In this document: piece after piece, positions 21,680 to 38,187 of the stretch | How the letters are laid out: the number at the start of each line of letters is the position of its first letter | How positions within the stretch are numbered: position 1 is the stretch's first letter | NCBI RefSeq assembly: GCF_000179235.2 | Contig: NZ_CP039373.1 | Coordinates: 1,333,860-1,397,859 of the forward strand | Reading direction: 5' to 3' | Length of the DNA stretch: 64,000 nucleotides | DNA from: Synechococcus sp. CB0101 | GTDB lineage: Bacteria; Cyanobacteriota; Cyanobacteriia; PCC-6307; Cyanobiaceae | Notes under the pieces: model-generated | Told to the model about the DNA's origin: nothing | Database searches by the model: none | What the model saw: the letters and a program-made list of their open reading frames with translations, nothing else | Program-made: the position numbers and the translations under genes

Positions 21680-22219
21680 TCAGAGCTGGGGAGCGGGAGG
21701 AGGCAGAGGCGCAGGTAGCTGTTGGGGCGCGGCCAGAGGGGGAGCGATCGCTGGGGGCTTCTCCTGCGGCTTGGGCTTCGACTGGGGTTTCGGTTTTGGC
21801 TTGGGAGTCGAAACCGGAGCCGATGCGGGTGCGGGTGCAACAACAGGCTCAGCATCAGAACCCTCAGCGTCTTGCAGCGGCTCCAACTGAGCCGCGTTCT
21901 GAAGGCGTTCCTCGGCCTTTTTGGCTTCCTCCTCACGCTGCTTGGCTTCTTCCTCCTGCTGCCGCTCCAGCTCCTGCAGCTCCAGGTCGCCTCTGATTTC
22001 CGCCTGGGCATCGCCGAAGCGCAGCTTCAGGCTCTCAAGGCTGGTGCCAGGGAACACCTGCACATCAAAACCAGGACCAAAGCGGATCAGCTCAGCCACG
22101 TTGAAGCTGACCAACCGTTGGGTCACGCCATAGGCCACCCCAAAGCAGAGGCCTGCCACCAGGGGCCCCTTCCAAAGGGGCTGAGGCCGAGGCTGGGTTG
22201 GCTGCAACACCCGGGCCAT
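21680..22219 (-). CDS. Hypothetical single-pass membrane protein with Pro/Lys-rich tail
   Basis: 179 residues. A hydrophobic segment at about 16-35 (LVAGLCFGVAYGVTQRLV) is followed by a globular stretch to about 75, a highly charged coiled coil (about 78-108, repeated EEEAK/REEEAKKAEE) and a Pro/Ala/Lys-rich low-complexity tail. It resembles short membrane-anchored picocyanobacterial proteins of unknown role. It diverges from the LysR-like gene across 172 bp that hold the promoters of both. Confidence 0.6.
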   Translation of the reverse strand: MARVLQPTQPRPQPLWKGPLVAGLCFGVAYGVTQRLVSFNVAELIRFGPGFDVQVFPGTSLESLKLRFGDAQAEIRGDLELQELERQQEEEAKQREEEAKKAEERLQNAAQLEPLQDAEGSDAEPVVAPAPASAPVSTPKPKPKPQSKPKPQEKPPAIAPPLAAPQQLPAPLPPPAPQL

Positions 22220-22391
22220 GCGGCCAGCGCAAGAGGGCCAACTCTAAGCAGCACAACCCGGAAGGGTCTGGAAGCCACCCCGGGCGCGAGCCCAGGGCAT
22301 GCAGAAATTGCATAAACGAAGCCCGCGTGTGTTGAAGCAGCCAACAACACAAGGGACGACAGTCCCCGCCTCTTAATTTCGGCAGGGTTGC

Positions 22392-23300
22392 GTGACGGAG
22401 GCAATCGTGATTTCGCTCGACTGCCTCGCCGCGCTCGATCACTTGATCTGGTTGCGCACCGGCCAACGGGCAGCCGATGCCCTTGCCTGCGCCCAGCCCA
22501 CCGTGAGCCGCAACAGCCGCAAATGCCTCGAGGTGTTTGGGCTGGAGCTGGCGCGCAGCCGCGGCGAGTGGCGCCTGATTGGCGACACGGAGCTGATCAA
22601 CCTGGAGCGACGCGTGCACCAGCAATGGCGCTGGAGCCGTGATTTCACCCTGCGACTGGAAGCGCAGCATTGGTCAGCGCCAGGTCTGGATGGCCTGGCC
22701 CTGGACAACTGGCAGCGCGGCAACTTCAACCAACTCGATTACGAGCAACCCCTGGCGCTCTTGCAAGACGGGGTCATCGACGCCTGGATCTGCTCAGCAC
22801 CCGATGCACCGCTGCGCGATGGCCTCAAAGGCCTGCGGTTGACGACCATGCCGATGCACCTGATGGTGCCGGTGGGGCATCCCCTGGCGGAGCGGCGCGA
22901 TGCCATCACCTGGGATGAGCTCCTCCCCTACCCAGTGCTGCCTCTACCGGGCGGCAGTTTCCCGATCTTCGAACGCGTGCTGCGTGACTGCGGGTTATTG
23001 CCCAGCGCGGCCCGAGAAGCAGCGATGAAACAAGCGCCGTGGTTTGGCCAGATTCCCGTGGAAGCGATGCTGATTGGCTATTCCTCCCCGCTCACCCTGC
23101 ATCTCTACGGCGATGACTGGGTTCGGCTGCCCCAGCAACTACCCGTTGAAGTGGGGGATGTGCTGATGGTGCGCGAGCCCTACACCGACCATCCCCGCAC
23201 CCAGAGCCTGTTCAACCAGCTGATCGATCACATCGCCCAACTGGCCGCCCACCATCCAGACGTGGTGTTGCATCGCCAGCCGGTGGCTTACGTCGTGTAA
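22392..23300 (+). CDS. LysR-like transcriptional regulator, divergent
   Basis: About 302 residues from a GTG at 22392 (GTG 22407 is an alternative). Residues 10-60 read as a winged-helix unit of LysR style (ALDHLIWLRTGQRAADALACAQPTVSRNSRKCLEVFGLEL). The rest resembles a periplasmic-binding-fold effector domain (MPMHLMVPVGHPLAER, the usual LysR segment before the second lobe). Target and effector are unknown. The 3' end overlaps the convergent argJ by 13 bp. Confidence 0.7.
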   Translation: MTEAIVISLDCLAALDHLIWLRTGQRAADALACAQPTVSRNSRKCLEVFGLELARSRGEWRLIGDTELINLERRVHQQWRWSRDFTLRLEAQHWSAPGLDGLALDNWQRGNFNQLDYEQPLALLQDGVIDAWICSAPDAPLRDGLKGLRLTTMPMHLMVPVGHPLAERRDAITWDELLPYPVLPLPGGSFPIFERVLRDCGLLPSAAREAAMKQAPWFGQIPVEAMLIGYSSPLTLHLYGDDWVRLPQQLPVEVGDVLMVREPYTDHPRTQSLFNQLIDHIAQLAAHHPDVVLHRQPVAYVV

Positions 23301-24517
23301 TCGGCGTTGATACGCACGTATTGATCCGATAGGTCGCATCCCCAGGCGCAGCCGCTGCCGGAGCCAGCGCCAACCTGGATGCGGATCAGCACCGTGTCGT
23401 CGTGCAGATAGGTGCCAGCCGCCCGATCACGCATGTAGGCCGAAGCTGCAGGGCGATCAAAGGGGAGGGGCTGGCCAGCGGCCATCAGTTGGTGATCACC
23501 CAGCCAAAGGGCCACCGCATCAGGGTCCATGGGCACACCGGCGCGGCCGGCGGCCGCCACGATCCGTCCCCAGTTGGGGTCGCGGCCATGCACCGCACAC
23601 TTCACGAGCGAGGAGCCGCAGATGGTGCGGGCAATCGCACGCGCTGCAGCGTCATCGCTAGCCCCCTCCACTTGCACCTCCAGCAGACAGGTGGCGCCCT
23701 CGCCATCGCGAGCGATGGCTTTGGCCAGGTGTTGCGACACCGCCGTTAGGCCGGCCTCCAACGCCTCGAAATGCTCGGGGTTCAGGGGCTCGCCGGCTGC
23801 AAATGCCAGGTACGTGTCGTTGGTGCTGGTGTCGCCGTCCACCGTGATCGCATTGAAGGAGCGATCCACCGCCCGCTGCACCATCGCCTGCCACACCTCT
23901 GCCGGCACTCCGGCATCGCAGCTGAGGTAGCCGAGCATGGTGGCCATGTTCGGATGGATCATTCCCGAGCCCTTGGCCATGCCGCCGATCCGTACGGTGC
24001 GGCCGCCGAGATTGGCCTCGAGGGCGATCTGCTTGTCGATCAAGTCGGTGGTGAGAATCGCCGTGGCAGCTGCTGCCCCCCCTTCGGAGCTGAGCGCTTC
24101 GGCCAGGGGATCGATCCCCGCCAAGAGGGTGTCCATGGGGATCGGCACACCGATCACACCGGTGGAGCAGATCAGCACCTCCTCGGCAGCCAACCCCAGC
24201 CGATCGGCCATGGCCTGGGTGGCGCGCTGGCTGTCGATCAGGCCACGATCGCCCGTGCAGGCATTGGCCTGACCGGAATTGGTCAGCACCGCCCGGGCCC
24301 GGCCACCGTTGGCCTGCAGCCGCTCGGCGCAGAGATCCACGCAAGCCGCGCGCACCAGTGAGGTGGTGAACGTGCCGGCGCAAACCGCCCCTTCCGGGGC
24401 CAGCAACAGAGACAGATCAGGCTTACCGGAAGCCTTCAGGCCTGCGGTGATCCCAGCGGCCTGGAAACCCTCAGGGGCCGTGATGCCGCCGGGGATGAAC
24501 TGCCAGGGATGCGTCAC
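23288..24517 (-). CDS. argJ: Bifunctional glutamate N-acetyltransferase / ornithine acetyltransferase
   Basis: 409 residues. It recycles the acetyl group in arginine synthesis. The self-cleavage site is visible as KGSGMIHPNMATMLGY, where the Thr becomes the nucleophile of the beta chain. Other family segments are TNSGQANACTG, STGVIGVPIP and the C-terminal KCAVHGRDPNWGRI. The ORF is intact, and its 3' end overlaps the LysR-like gene. Confidence 0.97.
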   Translation of the reverse strand: MTHPWQFIPGGITAPEGFQAAGITAGLKASGKPDLSLLLAPEGAVCAGTFTTSLVRAACVDLCAERLQANGGRARAVLTNSGQANACTGDRGLIDSQRATQAMADRLGLAAEEVLICSTGVIGVPIPMDTLLAGIDPLAEALSSEGGAAAATAILTTDLIDKQIALEANLGGRTVRIGGMAKGSGMIHPNMATMLGYLSCDAGVPAEVWQAMVQRAVDRSFNAITVDGDTSTNDTYLAFAAGEPLNPEHFEALEAGLTAVSQHLAKAIARDGEGATCLLEVQVEGASDDAAARAIARTICGSSLVKCAVHGRDPNWGRIVAAAGRAGVPMDPDAVALWLGDHQLMAAGQPLPFDRPAASAYMRDRAAGTYLHDDTVLIRIQVGAGSGSGCAWGCDLSDQYVRINADYTT

Positions 24518-24582
24518 GGCCGGCGCTGCTTGCTCGAATCCTGCGATTCTGAGCGCTGATCGGCCGCTCGCCTGCTGCGCCC

Positions 24583-25218
24583 ATGGCCTCCTCGCCCCGC
24601 TGGAACGGCCCGCAACGCCGCATTGGTCTCACCGGCGGCATTGCCAGCGGCAAGAGCACCGTGGCCCGCTGGTTGGCGGAGCAGGGGTTGCCTGTGCTGG
24701 ATGCGGATGTGTATGCCCGGGAGGCCTTGGCTCCTGGCAGCGCTACTGCCCTAGCGGTGCTCCAGCGGTATGGGGAGGCGGTGCAGGCTGAAGGGAGTGT
24801 GCCCAGCGCCGGCGTTCTGGATCGGGGGGCCCTGGGGCGGATCGTGTTTGACGATCCCCTGGAGCGGCAGTGGCTCGAGCGCTTGGTGCATCCCCTGGTG
24901 CGAGACCGGTTCGAAACCGCTTTGGCGAACTTGGCGGGCGCTCCAACGGTGGTGCTGGTGATCCCGCTGCTGTTTGAAGCAGGCCTGGAAGCCCTGTGCA
25001 GCGAGATCTGGCTTGTGGATTGCGAGCCAGCGCAACAGCTGCAGCGGCTCATGGCACGGGATGAGCTCAGCCCCGAAGCGGCAGAGGCACGGATCAACGC
25101 CCAGTGGCCTCTGGAGCGCAAGCGCCCCATGGCGGACTGGGTGATTGATAACCGTTCAGCCACCAGCGACCTGCCAAGCCAGCTAACCGCTCAACTGCGG
25201 CCATCAACGCCAACCTGA
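24583..25218 (+). CDS. coaE: Dephospho-CoA kinase
   Basis: 211 residues. Last step of coenzyme A synthesis. The P-loop GLTGGIASGKSTVARWL is at about residues 17-33, then DADVYAREAL, and the lid and acceptor regions HPLVRDRF and VLVIPLLFEAGLE. Start ATG 24583 gives a short basic lead. Its end overlaps the convergent secreted-protein gene by 15 bp. Confidence 0.94.
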   Translation: MASSPRWNGPQRRIGLTGGIASGKSTVARWLAEQGLPVLDADVYAREALAPGSATALAVLQRYGEAVQAEGSVPSAGVLDRGALGRIVFDDPLERQWLERLVHPLVRDRFETALANLAGAPTVVLVIPLLFEAGLEALCSEIWLVDCEPAQQLQRLMARDELSPEAAEARINAQWPLERKRPMADWVIDNRSATSDLPSQLTAQLRPSTPT

Positions 25219-25683
25219 CGAGGACGCGTTGCGAGCGGCCAACACTTGGCGGGCATCCGCACAGGAACGCGCCTGAGCGAAGGCCACCCCTGGATTGCTT
25301 TCGCAGGAAGCCCACTCAGCAGCTGTGAAGCAGCCCGGGGAAATCGCCATACAGGCGATATTGGCGTCTTCGGAGCGGAACGTTGTGGCACGCGGTTGCA
25401 CCTGGCTGCCCAGCTCGCGGTGAGCCTGAAGCAGGCTTTTCAGGAGTGGGCTACTGAGCAGAGGGCGGCGAACGGCGGGGCGTTCGGGCTCGATCTGCTC
25501 AGCCGGTGCACAGGCCTGATGCCTGAGCAGAAAGCCAGTGCCATCCACCGTGAGTCCCAACTGCTGGGAGGCGCAGGGCTGGACTGGCTGTGCCACCGCT
25601 GGAAGGGCCAACACCAAACCCGGAGCCGCGCAGGCCGCCAAGAATGCGGCAACGGGACGGAGAAATCGGAAAGAAGCGTGCAT
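25204..25683 (-). CDS. Small exported hypothetical protein with several Cys
   Basis: 159 residues from ATG 25683, which gives a clean signal peptide (basic start, hydrophobic core, cleavage near AVAQP at about 32). An ATG at 25731 overlaps the upstream stop as ATGA and could be used by coupling. The mature part has six Cys, probably disulfides, and no recognised domain. The gene follows the tandem-duplicated exported proteins on the same strand, so it may share their transcript and regulation. Confidence 0.6.
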   Translation of the reverse strand: MHASFRFLRPVAAFLAACAAPGLVLALPAVAQPVQPCASQQLGLTVDGTGFLLRHQACAPAEQIEPERPAVRRPLLSSPLLKSLLQAHRELGSQVQPRATTFRSEDANIACMAISPGCFTAAEWASCESNPGVAFAQARSCADARQVLAARNASSSGWR

Positions 25684-25727
25684 GGTGCTCAATGCGAAGA
25701 AATGGTGAACTGGGCGCTCCGGGCGCT

Positions 25728-26243
25728 TCATCGGGCAGGCACCATCACGTAGCCGCCCTGGGGATAACCGGGCATCGGCTGCACGGGCTGCAGCACGGAT
25801 GCATTGGTGTATGTGTTCCCACCCTGCTGTTGGGCCAGCTGCAACTTCAACTTGAGCAGCTCAATCTCCTGCTGCTGCCGCATCAGCTCCAGCTCCGTGG
25901 CACTGGGAGCAGCAACTTTCTGAGCCGGCTGGGTCTGGGGTTGAGACTGACGGTTCTGGGCGTTCATGATCAGACCCGTGATCAGATTGCCTCCCAATCC
26001 AATCAATTGGCCCTGGGTGGCGTGCTGACGGTCGCGGGCATTTTCCTTGGATTGCCAGTCGCGGGCGGCAGCACAATCACGGCCTGCAGCATCAAAACGG
26101 CCACCATTACCGGAGATGCTCACCGAACCGGAATCACAGGCGCCATAGATCCCGAAGTTCTGGGCGTGGGCGGCAGGTGAAGCGATCGACAGGGCAGTAC
26201 CACCAGCAACGAGAGCGGCGGCAGCGAAGGATTGAAGAGTCAT
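25728..26243 (-). CDS. Exported hypothetical protein, tandem paralogue A
   Basis: 171 residues with a signal peptide ending at AAHAQ (about 28). The mature protein begins NFGIYGACDSGSVSISGNGG, has a basic middle (CAAARDWQSKENARDRQHA), a Gly/Leu hydrophobic stretch (QLIGLGGNLITGLIM), a Gln-rich helix (ELELMRQQQEIELLKLKLQL) and a tail ending GYVMVPAR. It is nearly identical to the paralogue at 26436-26945 except near the C-terminus. Function is unknown. A CRP-type palindrome lies 106 bp before the start. Its stop abuts the next exported gene. Confidence 0.7.
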   Translation of the reverse strand: MTLQSFAAAALVAGGTALSIASPAAHAQNFGIYGACDSGSVSISGNGGRFDAAGRDCAAARDWQSKENARDRQHATQGQLIGLGGNLITGLIMNAQNRQSQPQTQPAQKVAAPSATELELMRQQQEIELLKLKLQLAQQQGGNTYTNASVLQPVQPMPGYPQGGYVMVPAR

Positions 26244-26297
26244 GGGTCTGAGGGTTGTGCGTGAGTGAAGCGGTTGGGCTGTTCCCTTCCGATGAAC
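25836..26297. repeat. Tandem duplication unit, copy A (462 bp)
   Basis: Nearly the same sequence recurs 702 bp further at 26538-26999 with scattered single-base changes and no indel seen. The unit covers most of the exported-protein gene plus about 54 bp upstream of its start. The C-terminal codons and the more distant promoter DNA differ between copies. Confidence 0.9.
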
Positions 26298-26348
26298 ACA
26301 GCCTCGCCGCGATCAAGATCTCAACCGTTGACCAAAAACAAGTTCAAG

Positions 26349-26364
26349 GGTGATCTTGCTCACA
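26349..26364 (-). promoter_or_regulatory. CRP-type palindrome upstream of paralogue A
   Basis: GGTGA-N6-TCACA, one mismatch from the TGTGA-N6-TCACA site bound by CRP and by the cyanobacterial cAMP receptor SYCRP1. Its near edge is 106 bp from the start codon at 26243, the same distance as the site before paralogue B, although the DNA between differs. Confidence 0.5.
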
Positions 26365-26380
26365 GGGAGCAGCTGCAATA

Positions 26381-26411
26381 AAAAGCCCCGGCACAATGTG
26401 CCGGGGCTTTT
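26381..26411 (-). terminator. Strong hairpin terminator after paralogue B
   Basis: GCCCCGGCACA (26385-26395) pairs with TGTGCCGGGGC (26397-26407), flanked by AAAA on one side and TTTT on the other, so it can work in both directions. It lies about 25 bp after the stop of the gene at 26436-26945 and insulates the two duplicated units from each other. Confidence 0.9.
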
Positions 26412-26435
26412 GCGTCTGCGGTAAGAATCGAATCA

Positions 26436-26945
26436 CTAGCGCACAGGCACCATCACCACCCCACCCGAGGGATAGCCGGGCATGGGCTGCACCTGTTGCA
26501 CCTGAACGCTGGCGCCGTAGGAATTCTGCTGCTGAGACAGCTGCAACTTCAACTTGAGCAGCTCAATCTCCTGCTGCTGCCGCATCAGCTCCAGCTCCGT
26601 GGCACTGGGAGCAGCAACTTGCTGAGCCGGCTGGGGCTGGGGTTGAGACTGACGGTTCTGGGCGTTCATGATCAGACCCGTGATCAGATTGCCTCCCAGT
26701 CCAATCAATTGGCCCTGGGTGGCATGCTGACGATCGCGGGCATTTTCCTTGGATTGCCAGTCGCGGGCGGCAGCACAATCACGGCCTGCAGCATCAAAAT
26801 GACCACCATTGCCGGAGATGCTCACCGAACCGGAATCACAGGCGCCATAGATCCCAAAGTTCTGGGCGTGGGCGGCAGGTGCAGCGATCGATAGGGCAGT
26901 ACCACCAGCAACGAGGGCGGCGGCAGCGAAGGATTGAAGAGTCAT
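26436..26945 (-). CDS. Exported hypothetical protein, tandem paralogue B
   Basis: 169 residues from ATG 26945, the start shared with paralogue A; the longer upstream opening has no matching sequence. Signal peptide, NFGIYGACDSG start and Gln-rich helix are as in paralogue A. The C-terminal 25 residues differ (SYGASVQVQQVQ) but return to PMPGYP and end in VMVPVR, so the tail motif is conserved. It has its own terminator and its own perfect CRP-type site 106 bp upstream. Confidence 0.7.
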   Translation of the reverse strand: MTLQSFAAAALVAGGTALSIAAPAAHAQNFGIYGACDSGSVSISGNGGHFDAAGRDCAAARDWQSKENARDRQHATQGQLIGLGGNLITGLIMNAQNRQSQPQPQPAQQVAAPSATELELMRQQQEIELLKLKLQLSQQQNSYGASVQVQQVQPMPGYPSGGVVMVPVR

Positions 26946-26999
26946 GGGTCTGAGGGTTGTGCGTGAGTGAAGCGGTTGGGTTGTTCCCTTCCGATGAAC
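26538..26999. repeat. Tandem duplication unit, copy B (462 bp)
   Basis: Partner of 25836-26297 at a constant 702-bp offset. Differences include single bases inside the coding region (for example Arg/His and Lys/Gln changes) and a sharp end of similarity just beyond GATGAAC upstream of the start. Confidence 0.9.
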
Positions 27000-27050
27000 C
27001 CAAGCTCGCTGGCTCAGCCGCTTCTTCCCTTGACCCGGCTCATGCAGCCC

Positions 27051-27066
27051 TGTGATGTTGATCACA
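27051..27066 (-). promoter_or_regulatory. Perfect CRP-consensus palindrome upstream of paralogue B
   Basis: TGTGATGTTGATCACA matches TGTGA-N6-TCACA exactly. The palindrome extends to a 9-bp arm (CCCTGTGAT 27048-27056, ATCACAGGG 27061-27069). Its near edge is 106 bp from the ATG at 26945. It lies just after the gatB stop, so it could instead be read as a gatB 3' hairpin, but there is no U-tract. Confidence 0.6.
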
Positions 27067-27081
27067 GGGCTCAAAAGCAAC

Positions 27082-28554
27082 TCAGCCCTTCAGCTTCTGA
27101 TTGAGGATCTGGTTCGCCAGCTTCGGATCGGCCTTGCCGCCGGTCTTCTTCATCAGCTGCCCCACAAAGAAGCCCTGCAGCTTGGTTTTGCCGCCGCGGA
27201 AGGCCTCCACCTCTTCCGGGTGGGCCGCCAGCAACTCCTCCACGATCGCGGTGATCGCCGCCGGATCGCTGATCATGCCCAGGCCTTTGGCCTCCACGAT
27301 CGCCGCTGGTGAGCCGCCCTTCTCCAGCAGCTCGGGCAGGATCTCCTTGGCGATTTTGCCGCTGATCTTGCCGCCGTCGATCAGTTGCACCATCTCCGCC
27401 AGCTGCTCGGGGCGGAAAGGCAGATCGGCATAGGAAAGCCGGTTGGCATTGACATAGGCGGCGATGTCACCGGTGATCCAGTTCGTCAGACCCTTGGCAT
27501 CAGCGCCGGCGGCCACGGCAGCCTCGAAATATTCGGCCATGGGGCGCTCATCGGTCAGAACGCGGGCGTCGTATTGCGACAGGCCCAGCTCCTCGGCGTA
27601 GCGATTGCGCTTGGCGGCGGGCAGCTCAGGCAGTTCAGCGCGCCAGCCTTCCCGGCGCTCCACGCTGACCTCGATCGGGCCGAGATCGGGGTCAGGGAAG
27701 TAGCGGTAATCGCTGGCGCCTTCCTTGCCGCGCATGCTCTTGGTGAGCTGCTTGCCCTCATCCCAGAGCCGCGTTTCCTGCACCACCGGCTCGCCAGCCT
27801 CATAGGCCTTGATCTGGCGCTGGATTTCGTATTCGCAAGCCTTTTGGATCGCCGAGAAGGAGTTCATGTTCTTGATCTCCACCTTCGTGCCAAAAGGTGC
27901 GTCGGGCCCGCGGCGCACGGAGATGTTCACGTCGCAGCGCAGGGATCCTTCTTGCATGTTGCCGTCGCTCACGCCCAGGTAGCGCATGATCCGGCGAATC
28001 TCGGAGGCGTATTCCGCCGCTTCACGACCGGTGCGCAGATCGGGCTTACTCACAATCTCCGCGAGAGCCACGCCGGCGCGGTTGTAATCCACCAGCGAAT
28101 GGGTGGAGCCGGCCAGGCGGTCGCTGCCGGCGTGCACCAGCTTGCCGGCGTCCTCCTCCATGTGCAGGCGTTCGATGCCGATGCGCTTGAGATAGGTGTC
28201 TTTGCCTTTTTCAGCCACTTCCACGTCGATCCAGCCGTCTTCGGCGATCGGTTCGTCGTATTGGGAGATCTGGTAGTTCTTCGGCAGATCGGGGTAGAAA
28301 TATTGCTTGCGATCAAACTTGCTGTGCTCGGCGATGTTGAGGTTGAGCGCCATCGCGGCCTTCACCGCATACTCGAGCACCTTCTGGTTGAGCACAGGCA
28401 GCGTGCCGGGCAACCCGCACACCACCGGATCAATGTGGGTGTTGGGGTCATCGCCAAAGGCCGTGGAGGCACTGGTGAAGATCTTGCTGTTGGTTCCCAG
28501 CTGAACGTGGGTCTCCAGGCCGATCACGGCTTCCCAGGCGGCCTCAGCAGCCAT
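27082..28554 (-). CDS. gatB: Asp-tRNA(Asn)/Glu-tRNA(Gln) amidotransferase subunit B
   Basis: 490 residues from ATG 28554 (MAAEAAWEAVIGLETHVQLG). With GatA and GatC it amidates mischarged Glu-tRNA(Gln). The kinase-like core motifs include GLETHVQLGTNSKIFTS, DLPKNYQISQYDEPI, LHMEEDAGKLVH, DYNRAGVALAEIVSKPD and the C-terminal tRNA-binding tail domain. The open frame continues far upstream, but that part is antisense to thiO and is not coding. Confidence 0.97.
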   Translation of the reverse strand: MAAEAAWEAVIGLETHVQLGTNSKIFTSASTAFGDDPNTHIDPVVCGLPGTLPVLNQKVLEYAVKAAMALNLNIAEHSKFDRKQYFYPDLPKNYQISQYDEPIAEDGWIDVEVAEKGKDTYLKRIGIERLHMEEDAGKLVHAGSDRLAGSTHSLVDYNRAGVALAEIVSKPDLRTGREAAEYASEIRRIMRYLGVSDGNMQEGSLRCDVNISVRRGPDAPFGTKVEIKNMNSFSAIQKACEYEIQRQIKAYEAGEPVVQETRLWDEGKQLTKSMRGKEGASDYRYFPDPDLGPIEVSVERREGWRAELPELPAAKRNRYAEELGLSQYDARVLTDERPMAEYFEAAVAAGADAKGLTNWITGDIAAYVNANRLSYADLPFRPEQLAEMVQLIDGGKISGKIAKEILPELLEKGGSPAAIVEAKGLGMISDPAAITAIVEELLAAHPEEVEAFRGGKTKLQGFFVGQLMKKTGGKADPKLANQILNQKLKG

Positions 28555-28656
28555 GTGTGTTCTCCAAGCGTGGGCCGATCCTATGGAAGGGCGCCGGTGG
28601 TCATCGGCGGGGCCGGGCTGAAACACTGAGGAGCTGTCTGCAGCTGCCCGCGAGCC

Positions 28657-29766
28657 ATGGCCGCCTCCAGCGAGTCGCCGGTGTTGATCCTGGGCGGAGG
28701 GCTGATGGGCCTGGCGGTAGCTCACCAACTGGCGCGCGCAGGCCAGGCCGTGGAAGTGCTCAGCCGGCGCCGCAGCGAAGCCGCGGGGTTCGTGGCCGCA
28801 GGGATGTTGGCGCCCCACGCGGAAGGGCTGAGCGGCGCCCTGCTGCAACTCGGCCAGCTCAGCCTGGAGCGGGTGCCGGCCTGGGTGGCCCAGATCGAAG
28901 CCGATAGCGGCCTCAGCTGCGGCCTGCGGCCCTGCGGAATCGTGGTGCCGTTCGCCACGGCTGCCGAACGGAATGTGTATCCCACCGCCGCCTGGGGGGA
29001 GGCCCTCAATCGCGAGGGGCTGGAGCGGGAGCTGCCGGGAATCGGGCCGGGTTGGCAGGCGGGCTTGCTGTTCCGCCAAGACGGGCAGATCGACAACCGC
29101 CGCCAGCTGATGCGCGCCCTGGAGCGGGCCTGCGTGGAACTGGGGGTGCGCTTCCAGGAGGGCGTGGAGGTGCTGGAGCTCCTGCAGGAGGGTGATCGCC
29201 TCAGGGGCGTGCGGGTGCGCGATGCCGCGGCCACGGTGCAAACCCTGGAGGCCGCCACCGCCGTGATCTGCAGCGGCGCCTGGAGTGCCCAACTGCTACC
29301 GCAGCTGCCCGTGTTCCCGGTGAAGGGGCAGATGCTTTCGCTGCAAGGGCCGCGCGAGGCACTGCAACGGGTGATCTTTGGCCCCGGCACCTATCTGGTG
29401 CCCAGGGAAGACGGGCTGCTGGTGGTGGGTGCCACCAGCGAACGGGAAGCCGGTTTCACCGAAGGGCTCACCCCCTTCGGCCAGCGGCAACTCCAGGCGG
29501 GGATCGAAGCGCTGCTGCCCGAAGCCAGCCAATGGCCACCGATGGAGCGCTGGTGGGGCTTCCGGCCCTGCACGCCCGATGAGGGGCCCCTGCTGGGGCC
29601 CAGTGCAGTCACCGGGCTATGGCTGGCCACCGGGCATCACCGCAATGGCGTGCTGTTGGCCGCGATCACGGCAGAACTTCTGGGGGCCTGTCTGCAGCCG
29701 GGCGGCTGCTCGCCTGCTCAACAAGCGCTGCTCAACAGCTTCCGCTGGGATCGCTTCAACGGCTAA
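28657..29766 (+). CDS. thiO: Glycine oxidase ThiO (FAD-dependent)
   Basis: 369 residues. It oxidises glycine to the imine used for the thiazole ring of thiamine. The dinucleotide-binding motif VLILGGGLMGLAVAHQLARAG is at residues 9-29, GFVAAGMLAPHAEG follows, and the C-terminal FAD-contact segment GLWLATGHHRNGVLLAAIT is intact. In several cyanobacteria ThiO is fused to ThiG; here it stands alone. It diverges from gatB. Confidence 0.92.
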   Translation: MAASSESPVLILGGGLMGLAVAHQLARAGQAVEVLSRRRSEAAGFVAAGMLAPHAEGLSGALLQLGQLSLERVPAWVAQIEADSGLSCGLRPCGIVVPFATAAERNVYPTAAWGEALNREGLERELPGIGPGWQAGLLFRQDGQIDNRRQLMRALERACVELGVRFQEGVEVLELLQEGDRLRGVRVRDAAATVQTLEAATAVICSGAWSAQLLPQLPVFPVKGQMLSLQGPREALQRVIFGPGTYLVPREDGLLVVGATSEREAGFTEGLTPFGQRQLQAGIEALLPEASQWPPMERWWGFRPCTPDEGPLLGPSAVTGLWLATGHHRNGVLLAAITAELLGACLQPGGCSPAQQALLNSFRWDRFNG

Positions 29767-29873
29767 CCCCGCCGCGGCCAACTGCTGCGCAACGGTTCAC
29801 CTCAGCTGCCAACCCAGTCGCGGGATCGTGTTCAGCATGGCGGCATCCCTGCAGAGCCGTTTCAACCTGCGCG

Positions 29874-30203
29874 ATGGAGCCGCTGCCCTTCCTCAACTTG
29901 CTGGCCCTGCTCTGCATGGGCCATTTCCTGGGGGATTTCGGTCTGCAGAACGACCGCATGGCCCAGGAGAAATGCCCGGGTTGCTCAGGCGCGGTGTCGT
30001 GGCGCTGGTGGCTCACCGGCCATGGCGCCATCCATGGGCTGCTGGTGGGGCTGATCACCGGCCAACCGCTACTGGGCCTGGCGGAATGGGGCCTACACAC
30101 CCTGATCGATCTGGGCAAATGCCAGCGGCGCTACGGCATGGGTGCCGACCAGGGCCTGCATCTGCTCTGCAAGGGGATTTGGGCAGCGCTGGCGCTGGCC
30201 TGA
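29874..30203 (+). CDS. DUF3307-type small membrane protein
   Basis: 109 residues from ATG 29874. Hydrophobic helices carry MGHFLGDFGLQNDRMAQEK near the N-terminus, SWRWWLTGHGAIHGLLVGLI in the middle and a polar GLHTLIDLGKCQ helix, the pattern of DUF3307 proteins. Conserved His and Asp residues inside membrane helices hint at metal or proton handling, but no function is established. It is convergent with ndk. Confidence 0.7.
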   Translation: MEPLPFLNLLALLCMGHFLGDFGLQNDRMAQEKCPGCSGAVSWRWWLTGHGAIHGLLVGLITGQPLLGLAEWGLHTLIDLGKCQRRYGMGADQGLHLLCKGIWAALALA

Positions 30204-30237
30204 GCTGGCCAGCGCTGCCCGGAGGCGATCCGAAGGA

Positions 30238-30693
30238 TCAGCCCTCCACGCGCCAGGTCTGATCGGCGGGGGTCCAGTCGCTCAGCTCGGAGGGCTGGAA
30301 CCAGAGGCCGATTTCGAACTGGGCAGTTTCAGGGGCGTCGGAACCGTGGATCACGTTGCGGCCGATGTTCACGGCCAGGTCGCCACGGATGGTGCCGGGC
30401 TCAGCTTCGAGGGGCTTGGTGGCGCCGATCAGCTTGCGGGCGCTGGCGATCACGCCGTCGCCTTCCCACACCATCGCTACCACTGGGCCGGAGGTGATGA
30501 AGTCGACCAGGCCAGCAAAGAAGGGACGCTCGCGGTGCACGCCGTAGTGGCTCTCAGCCAGTTCACGGCTGGGGGTGAGCTGCTTGAGGCCCACCAGCTT
30601 GAAGCCCTTGCGCTCGAAGCGGCCCAGGATCTCTCCCACCAGGCCGCGCTGCACGCCATCGGGCTTGATGGCAACGAAAGTGCGTTCGGCCAT
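30238..30693 (-). CDS. ndk: Nucleoside diphosphate kinase
   Basis: 151 residues from ATG 30693. It transfers phosphate between NTPs and NDPs through a phospho-His intermediate; the catalytic His is in [10 protein letters not shown]. The starting motif [21 protein letters not shown] and [13 protein letters not shown] are canonical, and length is normal. It diverges from speA. Confidence 0.98.
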
Positions 30694-30762
30694 GGAAGAA
30701 AAAGCGTCAGATCCGGCCCATCGTCCGCGGCGAGGCTGCCGCTTGGCAAGCACAGTGGTGCC

Positions 30763-32700
30763 GTGATCACCGCCCGGCCCTTGACCACCTGGACGCCCGC
30801 CGACAGCGCCGAGCTCTACGGCCTCAGCCGCTGGGGAGAGCCCTACTTCTCTGTGAATGCCCGCGGCCACATCAGCGTGCAGCCCCAGGGTGATCGGGGG
30901 GGCAGCCTCGATCTGATGGAGCTCGTGCAGGGGCTGGAGGGCCGCAACCTGGGCCTGCCGCTGCTGATCCGCTTCGACGACATCCTCGAAGACCGGCTCG
31001 AGCGCCTGCACGCCGCCTTCGAGCGCGCCATCGCGCAATACGGCTACGCCGGCCGCTACCAGGGCGTGTTCCCGGTGAAGTGCAACCAGCAGCGCCACGT
31101 GGTTGAGGAGCTGGTGAGCTGCGGGCGCCGCTGGCATTTCGGTCTGGAAGCCGGCAGCAAGGCCGAGCTCCTGATCGCCCTTTCGCTGATCGACGACCCC
31201 GAGGCGCTGTTGATCTGCAACGGCTACAAGGACCAGCGCTACATCGAAACCGCGATCCTGGCCCGCCGCCTCGGCCGCCAGCCCGTGGTGGTGATCGAGC
31301 AGGCCGATGAGGTGGAGCGGATCATCAGCGCCAGCCGCGCGCTTGGGGCCGCCCCCTTCATCGGCGTGCGCGCCAAGCTCTCCAGCCGCAGCACCGGCCG
31401 CTGGGGCAGCTCCGTGGGCGACAAGGCCAAGTTCGGCCTCTCAATTCCAGATCTGCTCGCCACCGTGGAGGCGCTGCGCCAGGCCGACCTGCTCGGGGAT
31501 CTGCGTCTGCTCCACTTCCACGTGGGCAGCCAGATCAACGACATCGCCGTGCTCAAGGACGCGCTGCAGGAGGCCGGCCAGATCTACGTGGAGCTCACCA
31601 AACAGGGGGCCCCGATGGGCTTCCTCGATGTGGGCGGCGGATTAGGGATCGACTACGACGGCAGCCGCACCGCCACAGCGGCCTCCACCAACTACTCGCT
31701 GCAGAACTACGCCAACGACGTGGTGGCCACGGTGCGCGAGTGCTGCGAACCCCATGGGGTGGCGCTGCCCACCCTGGTGAGCGAAAGCGGCCGCGCCATC
31801 GCCAGCCACTTCTCGGTGCTGGTGTTCAACGTGCTGGGCTCCGCGGCGATGCCAGGAGCTGTGCCGTCCGAAGAGGAAAGCGAACCACTCACGGTTCGCA
31901 ACCTGCGGGAGACGTTGAAGGGCATCACGGCGACAGCCCCTGAAGAGGAGGGCGTGCTGTCACGACTGCAGGAGGCCTGGAACGACGCGATCAAGTTCAA
32001 AGACGACGCGCTCGCGGCCTTCCGCCTGGGCTACATCTCGCTGCCGCAGCGGGCCATGGCCGAGCAGCTCACCTGGGCCTGCGCTGAAGCGATCGTGGCG
32101 CGGCTGCCCCGCGGTGGCGGCATCCCCGACGATCTGCGCCAACTGCGGGCCGCCATGGCCGGCACCTACTACGCCAATCTCTCGGTGTTCCGCTCCGCCC
32201 CCGACACCTGGGCGATCGAGCAGTTGTTCCCGCTGATGCCGATCCACCGGCTGGATGAGGAACCGACGGAGCTGGGCCATTTCGCCGACCTCACCTGCGA
32301 TTCCGATGGCAAGCTCGCCCGCTTCATCGGCGATGGCCAGGCCAAGCCCCTGCTGGAGCTGCATGCCCTCAATCCCGGGGAGCCGTATCTGATCGGGATG
32401 TTCCTGGGGGGCGCCTATCAGGAGGTGATGGGCAACCTGCACAACCTGTTCGGCAGCACCAATGCTGTGCACATCCGCCTCGCCCCCGGTGGCGGCTATC
32501 AGCTCGATCACGTGGTGCGCGGCAACACCAACGCCCAGGTGCTGGAAGCAATGGAGCACGACCCGGAGCTGCTGCTGGAGCGCTTGCGGGTGGCCAGCGA
32601 AGCCGCCATTCAGCGCGGCCAGCTGAAGATCAACGAAGCCCGCCGCCTGATGGATCACCTGGAAACCAGCCTGCGCCAGACCACCTATCTGCAGGAGTGA
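30763..32700 (+). CDS. speA: Biosynthetic arginine decarboxylase
   Basis: 645 residues from a GTG at 30763, matching the family length. It makes agmatine for polyamine synthesis. The PLP lysine is in [19 protein letters not shown]; other markers are [24 protein letters not shown], and the C-terminal substrate region [11 protein letters not shown]. Upstream in-frame codons to 30142 are antisense to ndk and not coding. Confidence 0.97.
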
Positions 32701-32798
32701 GCCACGGGCTGTGAGCAGGATCACCCCGGTGGCCGCCCTGGATCACTGGGCGATCTCGCCGTTGCGCTGAGGGTGAATCCAGTTCCCCCCCAACGGCC

Positions 32799-32990
32799 AT
32801 GACCTTCTCAATCCCCGGCTTCGATCAGTGGACCTTCCAGATCGTGATGTTCGGCAGCCTGCTGGTGCTGGAAGCTTTGAGCGGTGACCAGAAGCTGAGC
32901 ACCGTGCTCGAGCCCATGGACTCCACCAGGGCCCGCGCCCACGAACTGATCAACCGCCCTTGCTGTTCGCTGGCAGCAGCCCACGCTTGA
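32799..32990 (+). CDS. Small protein, member A of a two-gene family (63 aa)
   Basis: 63 residues from ATG 32799. The core WTFQIVMFGSLLVLEALSG and the tail AHELINRPCC recur in the 67-residue protein at 35250-35453 on the other strand. Its 3' end overlaps the convergent Crp-like gene by 41 bp. I do not recognise the family. The Cys pair near the end and the hydrophobic core suggest a small membrane-associated or metal-binding protein. Conservation in the paralogue supports that it is a real gene. Confidence 0.6.
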   Translation: MTFSIPGFDQWTFQIVMFGSLLVLEALSGDQKLSTVLEPMDSTRARAHELINRPCCSLAAAHA

Positions 32991-33654
32991 TCAGCGGCTG
33001 CAGGTCTGCGATCCGCAGCCCGGCCTCCAGCTCTTCCACCGTGCCGCGACTGCGCAATTTGCTCAGGGTGCGCGAGGCCGTCTCCCGGGCCAAGCCGGCC
33101 AGGAGGCCCAGCTCCCGTTGCGCCAGGGCTGGGATCACCGCCTGGGGATCATTGGCACTGCTACTGCGCCGGGCGAGATAAGCCAGCGCATCCAACAGGC
33201 GGGTGGTGGCATCACCGCTCTGGATGGCGAAGCGCTGGTTGAGATCCCGCAGCCGTGAGGCCTCCAGCCGCGCCAAGGCCAGAGCAAAACCGGCGTCTTG
33301 CTGCAGCAAGGCCGCAAACGGTGCAGCCCGCAGCTTCACCAAGGTCACCGGGGTGAGGGCCACCACATCGGCCGAGCGAGCTGCGCCGTCTAGCGCCGCC
33401 ATCTCCCCGAACACATCGCCCTCCCCCAGGACCGACATCACCACCTCGTCGCCATCGGCGGTGTACGTGCGCACCTTGGCCATGCCGCTGCGCAACAGAA
33501 ATAGCGACTCCCCCCAGTCCTGCTCCATCACAAACACCTGCTCCGGGCCATGGCTGCTCTGCAGGTGGCGATCGAGCAGCTGCGTGCACTGCTCTGCGCT
33601 GAGCGACGCAAACAGCGGCCAGGCCTGGAGCTGCTCAGGGGTGAAATCGGCCAT
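32950..33654 (-). CDS. Crp/Fnr family transcription regulator
   Basis: 234 residues from ATG 33654 (ATG 33660 is two codons earlier). The N-terminal cyclic-nucleotide-binding fold carries LFLLRSGMAKVRTYTADGDEVVMSVLGEGDVFGEMAALDG (given here only as landmarks: GDVFGEMAALDG is the phosphate-binding cassette region). The C-terminal winged helix has QRELGLLAGLARETASRTLSKL as its recognition element. An Arg expected for cAMP after the cassette (GAARSADV) is present. This is the obvious candidate to bind the CRP-type sites at 26.35 and 27.05 kb, though that link is inferred. Confidence 0.85.
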   Translation of the reverse strand: MADFTPEQLQAWPLFASLSAEQCTQLLDRHLQSSHGPEQVFVMEQDWGESLFLLRSGMAKVRTYTADGDEVVMSVLGEGDVFGEMAALDGAARSADVVALTPVTLVKLRAAPFAALLQQDAGFALALARLEASRLRDLNQRFAIQSGDATTRLLDALAYLARRSSSANDPQAVIPALAQRELGLLAGLARETASRTLSKLRSRGTVEELEAGLRIADLQPLIKRGLLPANSKGG

Positions 33655-33763
33655 GACCATGCAGACGAGCGGCACCACCCAAGCCCAGTTGAAGCGCCAC
33701 GGCAATGGCAGTGGCCAGGCGGGGGCAACCCCACCAGGATGAGCACACGCCGCAGGGCAGCCG

Positions 33764-34321
33764 ATGGGGGGGATCGAAACGCAACGCAGCATCGTGCGGG
33801 AGCGGATGAAACTGCTCCTGGCGGCCCACGACAGTGAAATCGTGCCGGTGGAGTTCCGCGCCGAGCCCGGTGAACTGTTACTCCGGCAGGGCGCCCCAGC
33901 CGAGCGGGTGCTGCTGCTCACCGAAGGCACTGTCGCCATCCAGGTGCGGCAGAGCGATGGCCAACCCCACACCCTGGCGATCGTGGAAGCCGAAGAACTG
34001 CTGGGGGAAATGGGCCTGTTCGGCAACGGCGTGCATTCCGCCGATGTGCAGGTGCTCGATGCTCCCGCCCAGCTGATCGCTGTAGACAGCGACCAACTGC
34101 TCAAAGCGATGCTATTTGATGCCGACCTCTCGATCGAACTGCTCGACCTGATCAGTCAACGCTGCCTGCAAGGCAACGAATTGGTGGGCCTGCTGCTCGA
34201 TGGGATCAAGGCCGCCCACAGCGGGGATCAAGCCCTGTTGCAACAAACGTGTAAGGCCTTGCGCCACCGCGGCCATTCGATTGCGACGGCGGCGGATCAA
34301 TTGGAGGGCTTGCTGCGATGA
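33764..34321 (+). CDS. Stand-alone cyclic-nucleotide-binding domain protein
   Basis: 185 residues. One CNB fold (about 30-125) with GELLLRQGAPAERVLLLTEG and the cassette region EELLGEMGLFGNGVHSADV, in which the usual Arg is replaced (VHSADV), so it may bind a different ligand or none. The C-terminal helices are not an HTH. Its stop overlaps the ATG of the CNB-GGDEF gene (ATGA), so the two are made together and may interact. Confidence 0.8.
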   Translation: MGGIETQRSIVRERMKLLLAAHDSEIVPVEFRAEPGELLLRQGAPAERVLLLTEGTVAIQVRQSDGQPHTLAIVEAEELLGEMGLFGNGVHSADVQVLDAPAQLIAVDSDQLLKAMLFDADLSIELLDLISQRCLQGNELVGLLLDGIKAAHSGDQALLQQTCKALRHRGHSIATAADQLEGLLR

Positions 34322-35253
34322 CAGGCAGCCCCGAGCTGCTGGAGCGCGTGCTGCAGCTGCAATCCCCTCTGTTCGCCGGCATCGATCCAATGCTGCTGAT
34401 CGAATGGCTGGAGGCGGCCGAGATGCGCTACCTCGCGGGGAACAGCTCGGTGCTGTCCGCCGATCAAGCCAATAGAGAAACCTTTCTGGTGATTTCGGGG
34501 CAGCTGCTGGTGACCCTCCAGCAGGGCGGCGCAACGCCGCTCGCGACTATTAGCCCGGGAGAGGTTTTCGGTGAGGTGTCGACCCTCACCTTGGGTGAGA
34601 CCACCGCCTGGGTGCGCGCAGAACAGGCCAGCGAGGTGTTGGTGATCGAACGAGAGCACCTTCTGGCCTGGGCCCAGCAGTCGCACCAACTCGCCCTCAA
34701 CTTGCTACAGCTGCTTGGGGAGCGCCTTCGGCACTCGAACCTGCATGCCCGCGGCGCCCAATCACTCAACCAACAGTTGCAGACCCGCGCCCTCAGCGAT
34801 GCCCTCACAGGCGCCCTGAACCGCCATTGGCTGGACCAACACCTCGAGTCCCTGCGGCTATGCCCAGAGCTGGCCCTGCTGATGGTCGACATCGATCACT
34901 TCAAGGCGATCAATGACACCCACGGCCACAGCTGCGGCGATGCCGTGCTCAGAGCCGTCGCCACGACCCTGCGCCATGCGCTGCGGCCCAGCGATGCACT
35001 GGTGAGGCTGGGGGGTGAGGAATTCCTGGTGATCTGCCGGCAAGAGGCCTCTCAGGCAGCCGCCGAGGGACTTGGCGAACGACTCCGCCAGGCCGTGCAA
35101 CACCTCCAGAGCGATGACCTACCGCCGGTCACCATTTCGATCGGCGTGGCCTTGCGGACCCCGGGCGAGGGCTGGGAAGCCCAGCTGGAGCGAGCCGATA
35201 CCGCCCTGTACCGGGCCAAACGCAACGACCGCAATCGGGTGGAGCTGGGTTAA
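34318..35253 (+). CDS. CNB-GGDEF diguanylate cyclase
   Basis: 311 residues. An N-terminal cyclic-nucleotide-binding-like domain (about 15-135, with SPGEVFGEVSTLTLGETTAWV) is joined by a short coiled coil to a GGDEF domain starting near TRALSDALTGALNRHWL. The active-site signature is RLGGEEF, so c-di-GMP synthesis is expected. An inhibitory I-site RxxD (RPSD) lies exactly five residues before it. The metal-binding Asp is in LLMVDIDHFKAIND. It is the second gene of a pair with the lone CNB protein. Confidence 0.9.
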   Translation: MTGSPELLERVLQLQSPLFAGIDPMLLIEWLEAAEMRYLAGNSSVLSADQANRETFLVISGQLLVTLQQGGATPLATISPGEVFGEVSTLTLGETTAWVRAEQASEVLVIEREHLLAWAQQSHQLALNLLQLLGERLRHSNLHARGAQSLNQQLQTRALSDALTGALNRHWLDQHLESLRLCPELALLMVDIDHFKAINDTHGHSCGDAVLRAVATTLRHALRPSDALVRLGGEEFLVICRQEASQAAAEGLGERLRQAVQHLQSDDLPPVTISIGVALRTPGEGWEAQLERADTALYRAKRNDRNRVELG

Positions 35254-35453
35254 ACGCAGCAGCTCGGATGCGCCATCAGCTCATGCGCCGCGTCGTAGGG
35301 CGCATCCTGGGGCTGCAGCCAGGTGGAGCAGTGCAAGGGCTCATCACCCGGGCCGCTGGCTGCGCGGCAGCCCTCGAGCCTCAGGCGACTACCCAGCAAC
35401 ACCAGCTGGAAGGTCCAGTGCTGGCGGGCCTGGATGGAAAAGCTGCTGGCCAT
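35250..35453 (-). CDS. Small protein, member B of a two-gene family (67 aa)
   Basis: 67 residues from ATG 35453, convergent with the diguanylate cyclase (4-bp overlap). It shares WTFQLVLLGSRLRLEG and the tail AHELMAHPSCC with the protein at 32799-32990. The two sit on either side of the cyclic-nucleotide signalling genes in opposite orientation. Family unknown to me. Confidence 0.6.
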   Translation of the reverse strand: MASSFSIQARQHWTFQLVLLGSRLRLEGCRAASGPGDEPLHCSTWLQPQDAPYDAAHELMAHPSCCV

Positions 35454-35547
35454 GGCTTGCAGCTCCTAACGATGGATACCTGAAGGATTCCCCCGTTGTT
35501 TGAAGGCGCCAGCCACTAGGAGCGGTTCGCCATCCGGCTGGCTCGCC

Positions 35548-38187
35548 TCAGCCCAGCGCCGCCGCGAGCTCGGTGCGGGCCTGCTCCAACGCCCCATCAA
35601 GGGCTGCACCATCGCGTCCACCGGCCTGGGCCAGGTTGGGCCGGCCGCCACCGCCGCCACCGCAGGCCTTGGCGATGCCACCGATGAAGGCTCCGGCCTT
35701 GGGGCCGGCCGCGATCACCGCCTTGCCAAACGATGCCACCAGGATCACTTTGCCCAGATCGGCGGGGTCGGGCAGACCGCCCAGCACCACGGCCGCGCCG
35801 TCGCCCAACTGATCCGCCAGGCCCTGGGCAGCGCTCTGCAAACCGCCGCCCTCCACACCATCAAGGCGTGCCACCAAGAGCTGGTGCTCACCCACAGCCA
35901 CCGCCAGCCCGGCCAGCGCCGCCGACTTCGCCAGGGCCAACTCCTCGCGCGCCGCGGCCAGGGCCTTCTGGCTGGCCTTGAGCTCATCGGCCAGCTGCAC
36001 CACCCGATCCACGATTTCGGCGGGCTGGGCCTTGAAGCGCTCGCCCAGCTGCTTCACCACCCCATCACGCTCGTTCAGATAGGCGAGCACGGCTGGACCG
36101 GCGACGGCCTCAATCCGGCGGATGCCAGCGGCCACACCGCTCTCGCTCACGATCTTGAACAGGCCGATCTCAGCGGTGTTGGCCACGTGGGTGCCGCCGC
36201 AGAGCTCCATCGACACGCCGGGTACATCCACCACGCGCACCACATCGGCGTACTTCTCGCCGAACATCGCCACGGCGCCGGCAGCCTTGGCCTTCTCGAT
36301 CGCCATCTCCTGCACCTCAAGGCTGTGGGCCTCGCTGATCCAGCCGTTGATCAGCACTTCGATCTGCTCGAGCTCTGATGCGCTCACGGCGCGGGGGCAG
36401 TGGAAGTCGAAACGGAGGCGATCGAAATCCACCAGCGAACCGGCCTGGCCGATGCCCGGATCCACCACCTGCTTCAGCGCCGCCTGCAACAGGTGTGTGG
36501 CGGTGTGGTTCGCCTGGGCGCGGCGGCGGCAGGCTCGGTCCACCTGGCCGTGCACCACATCCCCGAGGCTGAGCACGCCGCGCTCGATGCGGCCGCTGTG
36601 CACAAACACGCTGCGGTTCCGGCTCACCGCATCGATCGCCACGATCAGCTCGTCGCCGCTGAGCACACCGCGATCACCCACCTGACCGCCGCCCTCGCCA
36701 TAGAAGGGGGTGGTGTCGAGCACCACCTGCACGCTGTCGCCGGCCACGGCGCGCTGCGCTGGCTCGCCGTTCACCACCAACGCCAAAACGCAGCTGCTCT
36801 GCTCGAGCAGCTCGTAGCCGCGGAAGGCGGTGGCCTCCAGATCAGCGGCCACCTGATCGATCGCTTCCTGCAGGGTGAGATCGATGCTCACCGCCGCGGC
36901 CTTGGCCCGCTGGCGCTGGGCCTCCATCGCGGCTTCAAATCCCTCAAGATCCATCGTGAGGCCATGCTCCTCGGCGATCTCCTCGGTGAGCTCCAGCGGG
37001 AAGCCGTAGGTGTCGTAGAGCTCGAAGGCCTGCTCGCCTGAGATCTGCTTGGGCTTGGCCGCCAGCACATCGGCCAGCAGCTTCTCGCCGCGCTCCAGGG
37101 TTTCCAGGAAGCGGGCTTCTTCGCGCTGGAGCTCCGCCAGGATCACCTCGCGCCGCTCCACCAGCTGCGGGTAGGCGCTCTGCATCAGCGCGATCGACGC
37201 CTCACCCATCGCCGTGAGGAAGGGCTTGTCGATACCGAGGAGACGTCCGTGGCGCACCACGCGGCGCAGCAACCGGCGCAGGATGTAGCCGCGGCCCAGG
37301 TTGCTGGCGGTGACGCCATCGCAGATCAATTGGGTGATGGCACGGCTGTGGTCGCCGATCACCTTCAGGCTGGTTTTGCCCTTGTCATCGAGGGCGGGAT
37401 AGGCCACACCGGCCAGCTGCGCCGCCGTTTCGATCAGCGGATAGATGAGGTCGGTTTCGTAGTTATTGGGAACGGCCTGGAGGATCTGGGCCATCCGCTC
37501 GAGGCCCATGCCGGTGTCGATGTTGCGGTTAGCCAGCGGCGTGAGGGTGCCCTCCGCGTCGCGGTTGTACTGCATGAACACCAGGTTGTAGAACTCGATG
37601 AAGCGGGAGTCGTCTTCGAGGTCGATGCCGTCATCGCCGAGTTCGGGCTTGAAGTCGTAATAGATCTCTGAGCACGGGCCGCAGGGGCCGGTGGGGCCGG
37701 AGGCCCAGAAGTTGTCGGCCTCATCCATGCGGATGATTCGCTTGGGGTTCACCCCCACCACGTCACGCCAGATCGCTTCGGCCTCGTCGTCTTCGCGGAA
37801 CACGCTCACCACGAGGTTCTTGGGGGAGAGCCCGAACACGCCGGTGCTCAGCTCCCAGGCCCACTGAATCGCCTGCTCCTTGAAGTAATCGCCAAAGGAG
37901 AAGTTGCCGAGCATCTCGAAAAACGTGTGATGCCGCGCCGTGCGGCCCACGTTTTCGATGTCGTTGGTGCGGATGCACTTCTGGGAGCTGGTGGCGCGGG
38001 GCGCCGGCCGTTGCTGCTGTCCCAGAAACACCGGCTTGAAGGGGAGCATGCCGGCGATGGTGAGCAGCACCGTGGGGTCTTCCGGCACCAGCGAGGCGCT
38101 GGCCATGGGCTTGTGGCCGCGCTGCTCATAGAAATCGAGAAACGCCGCGCGGATCTCAGCACCAGTGCGAGGGGCGGCGGCAGCCAT
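35548..38187 (-). CDS. alaS: Alanyl-tRNA synthetase
   Basis: 879 residues from ATG 38187 (an ATG ten codons earlier is unlikely). The class II catalytic core starts with [16 protein letters not shown] and [15 protein letters not shown]. The editing domain has the metal motif HTATH in [10 protein letters not shown] and CGGTHV further on. The C-terminal C-Ala domain (Gly-rich [19 protein letters not shown]) is complete. It has normal length. Confidence 0.98.

Follow-up and report, generated by a model that had tools for sequence, protein, structure and literature searches.

A putative tandem CRP-dependent promoter upstream of exported-protein genes in picocyanobacteria

Introduction

In the picocyanobacterial genome of Synechococcus sp. 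CB0101 (a single contig of 2,789,616 bases, 2.79 Mb), the interval between coaE and gatB holds two tandem genes for an exported protein, A and B, each preceded at the same distance by a CRP-type site. The locus raises the question of whether these sites act as operators and, if so, of what kind of promoter they form a part. The analysis presented here makes it likely, on the strength of sequence comparison, that they serve as the distal operators in a CRP-dependent promoter of stereotyped layout, which would drive an exoprotein regulon.

The coaE–gatB locus

The window is the whole stretch of 64,000 nucleotides that was analysed, and coordinates refer to it unless a genome is named. Protein A (169 aa) is encoded at 26436..26945 and protein B (171 aa; 91% identity to A) at 25728..26243, both on the minus strand; the ATG start codons lie at 26945 and 26243, an offset of 702 bp between the copies. 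Signal peptides, here and throughout, were judged by eye. Neither protein matched a Pfam family above the cut-off or an NCBIfam family. A third small exported-looking protein follows B (25204–25683; start uncertain); it had no match in Pfam or NCBIfam, and relatives keep this neighbour beside the cluster. A terminator-like hairpin lies between A and B (26380..26412, minus strand; −27.9 kcal/mol over 51 nt, z −5.2), although a consensus scan did not flag it; as this strong hairpin separates the genes, B probably uses its own promoter. An Rfam scan of 25600–27200 gave no match at the gathering score (eight weak ones were listed) and a tRNA search of 22000–36000 found none.

The site of promoter A (27051..27066, minus strand; TGTGATGTTGATCACA, minus strand TGTGATCAACATCACA) matches the CRP binding-site consensus TGTGA-N6-TCACA without mismatch, and that of promoter B (26349..26364, minus strand; GGTGATCTTGCTCACA; as promoter element, TGTGAGCAAGATCACC) matches it with one. 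The preliminary description had placed both sites 106 bp ahead of the ATG, and recomputation from the two start codons returns the same value. The A site is situated within a perfect 11-bp inverted repeat (27046–27071), 10 bp past the gatB stop. A further one-mismatch site is found 10 bp past the speA stop (32710–32725); it has no obvious gene downstream, and the composite described below is absent from it (9 of 27 mismatches).

At the scale of the window the loose motif is not enriched (ten matches with up to two mismatches, against a shuffled mean of 17.4). Genome-wide, TGTGA-N6-TCACA with at most one mismatch occurs at 39 sites, compared with seven for the reversed pattern. A crude gene caller placed 16 of the 35 sites with checked flanks between genes; three of these (L015, L016 and L017) fall inside long open frames, so that the intergenic sites number about 13 of 35, against a baseline of some 20% of the window that the same caller leaves uncalled. 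This placement lends weak support to a function. Exact matches in the genome number three (L003, L004 and L005), and all were called intergenic.

Architecture of the composite promoter

Both sites form the distal end of a 77-base composite in fixed register, in which TGTGA-N6-TCACA is followed by TGA-N6-TCA centred 22 bp downstream, by a GANNNT hexamer and by the element CATCGGA. Positions are given as d, counted along the minus strand in the downstream direction from the last base of the 16-mer, which is d0 (the position is 27051 − d in A and 26349 − d in B). In promoter A, on the minus strand, the proximal half-palindrome TGA-N6-TCA lies at 27031..27042, the predicted −10 hexamer GAGCTT at 27002..27007 and CATCGGA at 26990..26996, with the putative +1 at its A (26995). 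The corresponding minus-strand elements of promoter B are a proximal half-site region TGT-N6-TCA (26329..26340), in which one half is degenerate, the predicted −10 hexamer GAGGCT (26300..26305) and CATCGGA (26288..26294), with the putative +1 at 26293. The proximal site is without the outer G of TGTGA.

Conservation was assessed in 36 non-redundant composites, obtained by taking 60 of the 92 matches reported below and filtering them at 80% identity. Outside the search pattern, T at d9 was conserved in 29 of them, G at d10 in 33 and A at d11 in 28; the final T of the hexamer (d49) was present in 35, and the most information-rich unconstrained block was the core around d42–61. A second set was drawn from a search in which the TCA, the TGA and the hexamer were left unspecified (22 of its 28 single-gap matches, filtered to 12 independent promoters). 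Here NANNNT at d44 and TCA at d18 were each found in all 12 promoters, and TGA at d9 in eight.

Taking GANNNT at d44–49 as the −10 element and the A at d56 as +1 places the centres of the two CRP-type sites at about −63.5 and −41.5. A site centred at the class II distance of about −41.5 results only when the conserved A at d56 serves as +1, and we infer that transcription starts at this A of CATCGGA. The −10 hexamer resembles TATAAT poorly, and a sigma-70 scan of the promoter strand found nothing. Two other readings of this region were set aside. A −10 element at GTTCAT, with the distal site at −71.5, was dropped in favour of the hexamer at d44, which is present in 12 of 12 promoters. The core can also be read as a peptide (GDGVCIG-like), in frame with the gene in two CB0101 promoters; in A this frame does not join the gene.

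The candidate regulator

A Crp-family gene about 6 kb from the sites had been pointed out previously, and its assignment holds. The protein encoded at 32950..33654 (minus strand) matches PF00027 (75.3 bits), PF13545 (38.9 bits) and PF00325 (25.0 bits), each above its cut-off, and so combines a cyclic-nucleotide-binding domain with a Crp-type helix-turn-helix. Among 11 families its best match was the NCBIfam CRP equivalog NF008732, with 62 bits; this is far below the cut-off of 266, and the protein is therefore named CRP-type and not a member of the equivalog. Its recognition helix, RETASR, conforms to RExxxR, and the GE...RSA motif of its cyclic-nucleotide pocket is kept in the alignment of its orthologues. 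The form RET[AT]SR occurs in 24 of the 25 readable orthologues, including all 19 readable members of the close class defined below (five of the 30 loci gave no usable sequence). In CRP, residues 13, 14 and 18 of the recognition helix contact DNA, according to the main text of Xu & Su (2009; PMC2633013). The CB0101 genome encodes ten cyclic-nucleotide-binding proteins, among which, by eye, only this one has an RETxxR helix; in the two others whose Crp-type helix can be made out, the sequence is TRVTxTR.

The ligand of the regulator would be cAMP or another cyclic nucleotide; the position that we take to be equivalent to Thr127 of E. coli CRP is not Thr in this protein. The genome contains one class III cyclase candidate (L033, G000 C1:2764612-2765079). 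Its open frame also looks kinase-like, and it carries His at what is presumably the position of the catalytic Asn. Divergent beside crp, at 33764–35253, are two further cyclic-nucleotide-binding proteins; one is fused to GGDEF, hinting at cross-talk with c-di-GMP.

Recurrence of the composite and association with CRP

A search with a 24-letter pattern of the composite, allowing up to three mismatches, returned 92 matches in 23 of 151 genomes of the family, compared with none for the reversed pattern in all 151. Many of the 92 are tandem copies, and the counts are therefore not independent events. Four composites, all with zero mismatches, are present in the CB0101 genome. Alignment of its other TGTGA-N6-TCACA sites displays the same downstream pattern before the genes at 729144 and 938990 of the genome, and a degenerate composite at 1049331, before a gene with an uncertain start codon. 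In a class-wide sample of 339 genomes the composite was present in 18; all of these belong to the 63 family members of the sample, which overlap the set of 151, and it is absent from the 276 sampled members of the class that lie outside the family.

A CRP match at an E value of 1e-25 or better was obtained in 35 of the 151 family genomes, which we divided by a split of our own into 20 with a close CRP (68–100% identity) and 15 with a distant one (45–56%). At least one composite is present in 18 of the 20 close-CRP genomes, in three of the 15 with a distant CRP (G002, G055 and G073) and in two of the 116 with none. The association of close CRP with the composite is strong (Fisher p = 6.6e-17 against the rest) and persists on stratification over four genera (p = 1.3e-5). 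The two close-CRP genomes lacking a composite are G027 and G154; the two genomes with composites and no CRP are G026 (three) and G069 (two); all of their matches are at three mismatches, and relaxing the search brought up no close CRP in either. In G055, whose CRP is only 47% identical, there are 15 composites, many of them before GG-leader peptides (L167). No CRP was found in a Tanganyika metagenome-assembled genome (MAG) with both promoters, an assembly that is only 68% complete.

Spacing was assessed with the exact site and the letters CATCGGA, separated by a free gap of 40–70 bases (31 gaps). A single gap of 55 is shared by 28 of the 34 matches, all 28 being in close-CRP genomes. The gaps of the other six are scattered; none of these is in a close-CRP genome and one (G098) is in a genome with a distant CRP. 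The reversed control gave one match. The count of plain TGTGA-N6-TCACA sites also differs between genomes with a close CRP and those with none (Mann–Whitney p = 3.6e-8, unadjusted), but the tie is not significant within genera (p = 0.085 and 0.21) and there is no effect for distant CRPs (p = 0.37). As significance was lost within genera, the plain count was set aside as a test of CRP dependence and the composite was relied on instead.

The association also bears on how much of the composite belongs to CRP. Its binding might be confined to the distal site, with a repressing or weak effect, while the rest is the core promoter of an alternative sigma factor or the site of a second regulator, whose regulon the layout would then mark. 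Such an arrangement would agree with the core at d42–61 being both the richest unconstrained block and unlike a standard sigma-70 promoter, and with one promoter of an A/B homologue, L148, which keeps the core but has lost the CRP half (12 of 27 mismatches). However, TGA-N6-TCA has the geometry of a CRP site and lies 22 bp from the first, the hexamer yields the class II distance of 41.5 with no fitting, and it is the whole composite that tracks the CRP gene; we regard an alternative-sigma or second-regulator origin of the layout as unlikely.

A second alternative applies to the A site only, namely that the inverted repeat 10 bp past the gatB stop is the 3′ hairpin of that gene and not an operator. 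The predicted hairpin is strong (−28.3 kcal/mol, z −4.9) and its CCC...GGG flanks are kept in A-type orthologues, but no T tract follows it, the flanks are not kept in B or other composites, and B (z 0.17) and the other listed composites have the site without a hairpin. The hairpin is thus a highly improbable explanation of the site. The A site may be a dual-use element, both operator and gatB hairpin; dual use would leave the composite family unexplained.

Divergence of the copies and conservation in orthologues

Between A and B the 44 bases before the ATG are identical at 43 positions, the promoter core (d42–61) at 17 of 20 and the distal site at 13 of 16, whereas the spacer between site and core (d1–41) is identical at 14 of 41, about the chance level. 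The near-identical block extends into the promoter core and stops there, and the sites are located beyond it in divergent DNA, as the preliminary description had it; its claim that they are conserved amid this divergence is likewise borne out, both between the copies and in orthologous promoters. The exported protein was found in three of 25 genomes of the genus, CB0101 included, and at one locus in a further contig collection, which belongs to the same MAG as G012. On the MAG contig VGPP01000142.1 both copies match the site consensus exactly and in register; the relative G015 has a single copy with the site in register and one mismatch. No gap separates site and core in the alignment of the MAG and G015 promoters. 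Spacer identities to orthologues are 31/41 (A and MAG A), 30/41 (A and G015) and 22/41 (B and MAG B).

Over the first 300 coding bases, A and B share 290 positions in CB0101 and 270 in the MAG, and CB0101 shares 237–249 with the MAG or G015. These figures are most simply read as an old duplication whose promoters were kept independently and whose coding sequences were homogenised, probably by gene conversion; the duplication would be older than it appears because the coding copies were homogenised within each genome.

A profile built from six A/B sequences gave 28 matches in eight of the 151 family genomes, all eight with a close CRP. For the promoter scan 26 were taken, two partial matches without a start being left out, and 22 of these have upstream DNA. 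The proposed control depends on orthologous promoters carrying such a site, and 21 of the 22 carry the composite with at most seven of 27 mismatches, many of them being near-identical tandem copies within a single genome; the best of 20 shuffles of each gave 10–13 mismatches. The exception is L148, described above. The remaining four homologues are at contig ends, beside composites already among the 92 matches. That the sites are functionless leftovers of the duplication, as descent of both promoters from one and the mismatch in B might suggest, is the least probable explanation of all, given a spacer reduced to 14/41 between a site at 13/16 and a core at 17/20 and the same layout ahead of unrelated genes.

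Genes downstream of the composite

The first ATG that opens 45 codons or more is situated 29–50 nt downstream of the composite at 27 of 30 loci; for the other three the distances are 12 nt, 5 nt and none. When 22 distinct downstream proteins were scanned, seven were RTX proteins above the Pfam cut-off (one more fell just below), six had CCRG-2 or class IIb bacteriocin (bacteriocin/RiPP) leaders above the NCBIfam cut-off, one was a vanadium-dependent bromoperoxidase (E = 3.1e-96; L092) and seven had no family match. CCRG denotes co-culture responsive genes; four of ten downstream proteins scanned reach the NCBIfam CCRG-2 cut-off. In another genus, two genomes have the composite ahead of a vanadium-dependent bromoperoxidase gene (L092, and L094 by resemblance). 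G008 and G013 are without A and B, and their coaE–gatB interval has composites before a different signal-peptide protein, with two copies in G008 (L165:3010 and 3991) and one in G013 (L166:7656), where the reading frame looks short. Promoter and place are therefore kept at this locus while the cargo differs.

Proposed mechanism and significance

A CRP dimer from 32950–33654 would bind TGTGA-N6-TCACA at about −63.5, and a second dimer would bind the weaker TGA-N6-TCA at about −41.5, probably cooperatively. The proximal dimer would contact RNA polymerase in class II fashion, which could make up for the missing −35 element and the weak GANNNT −10; the proposed outcome of CRP binding is activation rather than repression. 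The promoter would drive A and B separately, together with at least two other zero-mismatch promoters in CB0101, and in relatives the composite would drive RTX proteins, GG-leader peptides, bromoperoxidases and other exported proteins, being kept while cargo genes change and tandem copies homogenise.

On balance we favour the broader proposal that one tandem-CRP promoter defines a picocyanobacterial exoprotein regulon comprising RTX proteins, GG-leader peptides including CCRG-2, vanadium bromoperoxidases and exported repeat proteins, with cargo exchanged at fixed loci such as coaE–gatB. Picocyanobacteria secrete RTX proteins, bacteriocin-like peptides and bromoperoxidase, for which the literature searched names no common control; if the proposal is true, cyclic-nucleotide signalling sets the interaction arsenal of these cells. 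The 77-base signature allows candidate exoprotein genes to be listed straight from sequence and makes a CRP role in picocyanobacteria directly testable. It also offers an example of promoter sequence that persists while the genes it precedes are replaced or their copies homogenised.

Comparison with known systems

At class II and class III CRP promoters of E. coli, a site at −41.5 overlaps a weak or absent −35 element and a second CRP site lies upstream. The composite would resemble these promoters in its putative −41.5 centre, a position that rests on the predicted start, and resembles them in its upstream site; it differs from them in that the centres are 22 bp apart, the upstream site is the stronger and the initial transcribed region is conserved too.

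Cyanobacterial CRP regulons with the consensus TGTGAN6TCACA were predicted by Xu & Su (2009; PMC2633013). The main text of that paper describes conserved recognition-helix residues, sites that degrade where crp is lost and targets that include type IV pilus, photosynthesis and transporter genes as well as many hypothetical ones, among them some in marine Synechococcus CC9311 and CC9605, with the site accompanied by a TA-rich −10 box. The composite shares with these regulons the site consensus, the conserved helix residues and the loss of sites with crp. It differs in that the main text, which makes no use of the terms tandem, RTX or secret*, reports no exoprotein regulon with a fixed 77-base layout. 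Some proteins encoded downstream of the composite, though not A and B, are of the kind of the CCRG-2 peptides of picocyanobacteria (PMC8120280), and the part of that paper considered here does not discuss the control of CCRG-2 genes. The literature searched, which lay mostly outside subscription journals, gives no account of the composite promoter or of a cyanobacterial CRP tied to secreted proteins or bacteriocins, and relative to it the promoter is new; nor does it contain an experimental study matching the regulator at 32950–33654. A further likeness is to the SyCRP1 targets slr1667/slr1668 of Synechocystis, cited in the main text of PMC2633013 as a case of cAMP–CRP control of cell-surface genes, control of a kind that may also apply to A and B.
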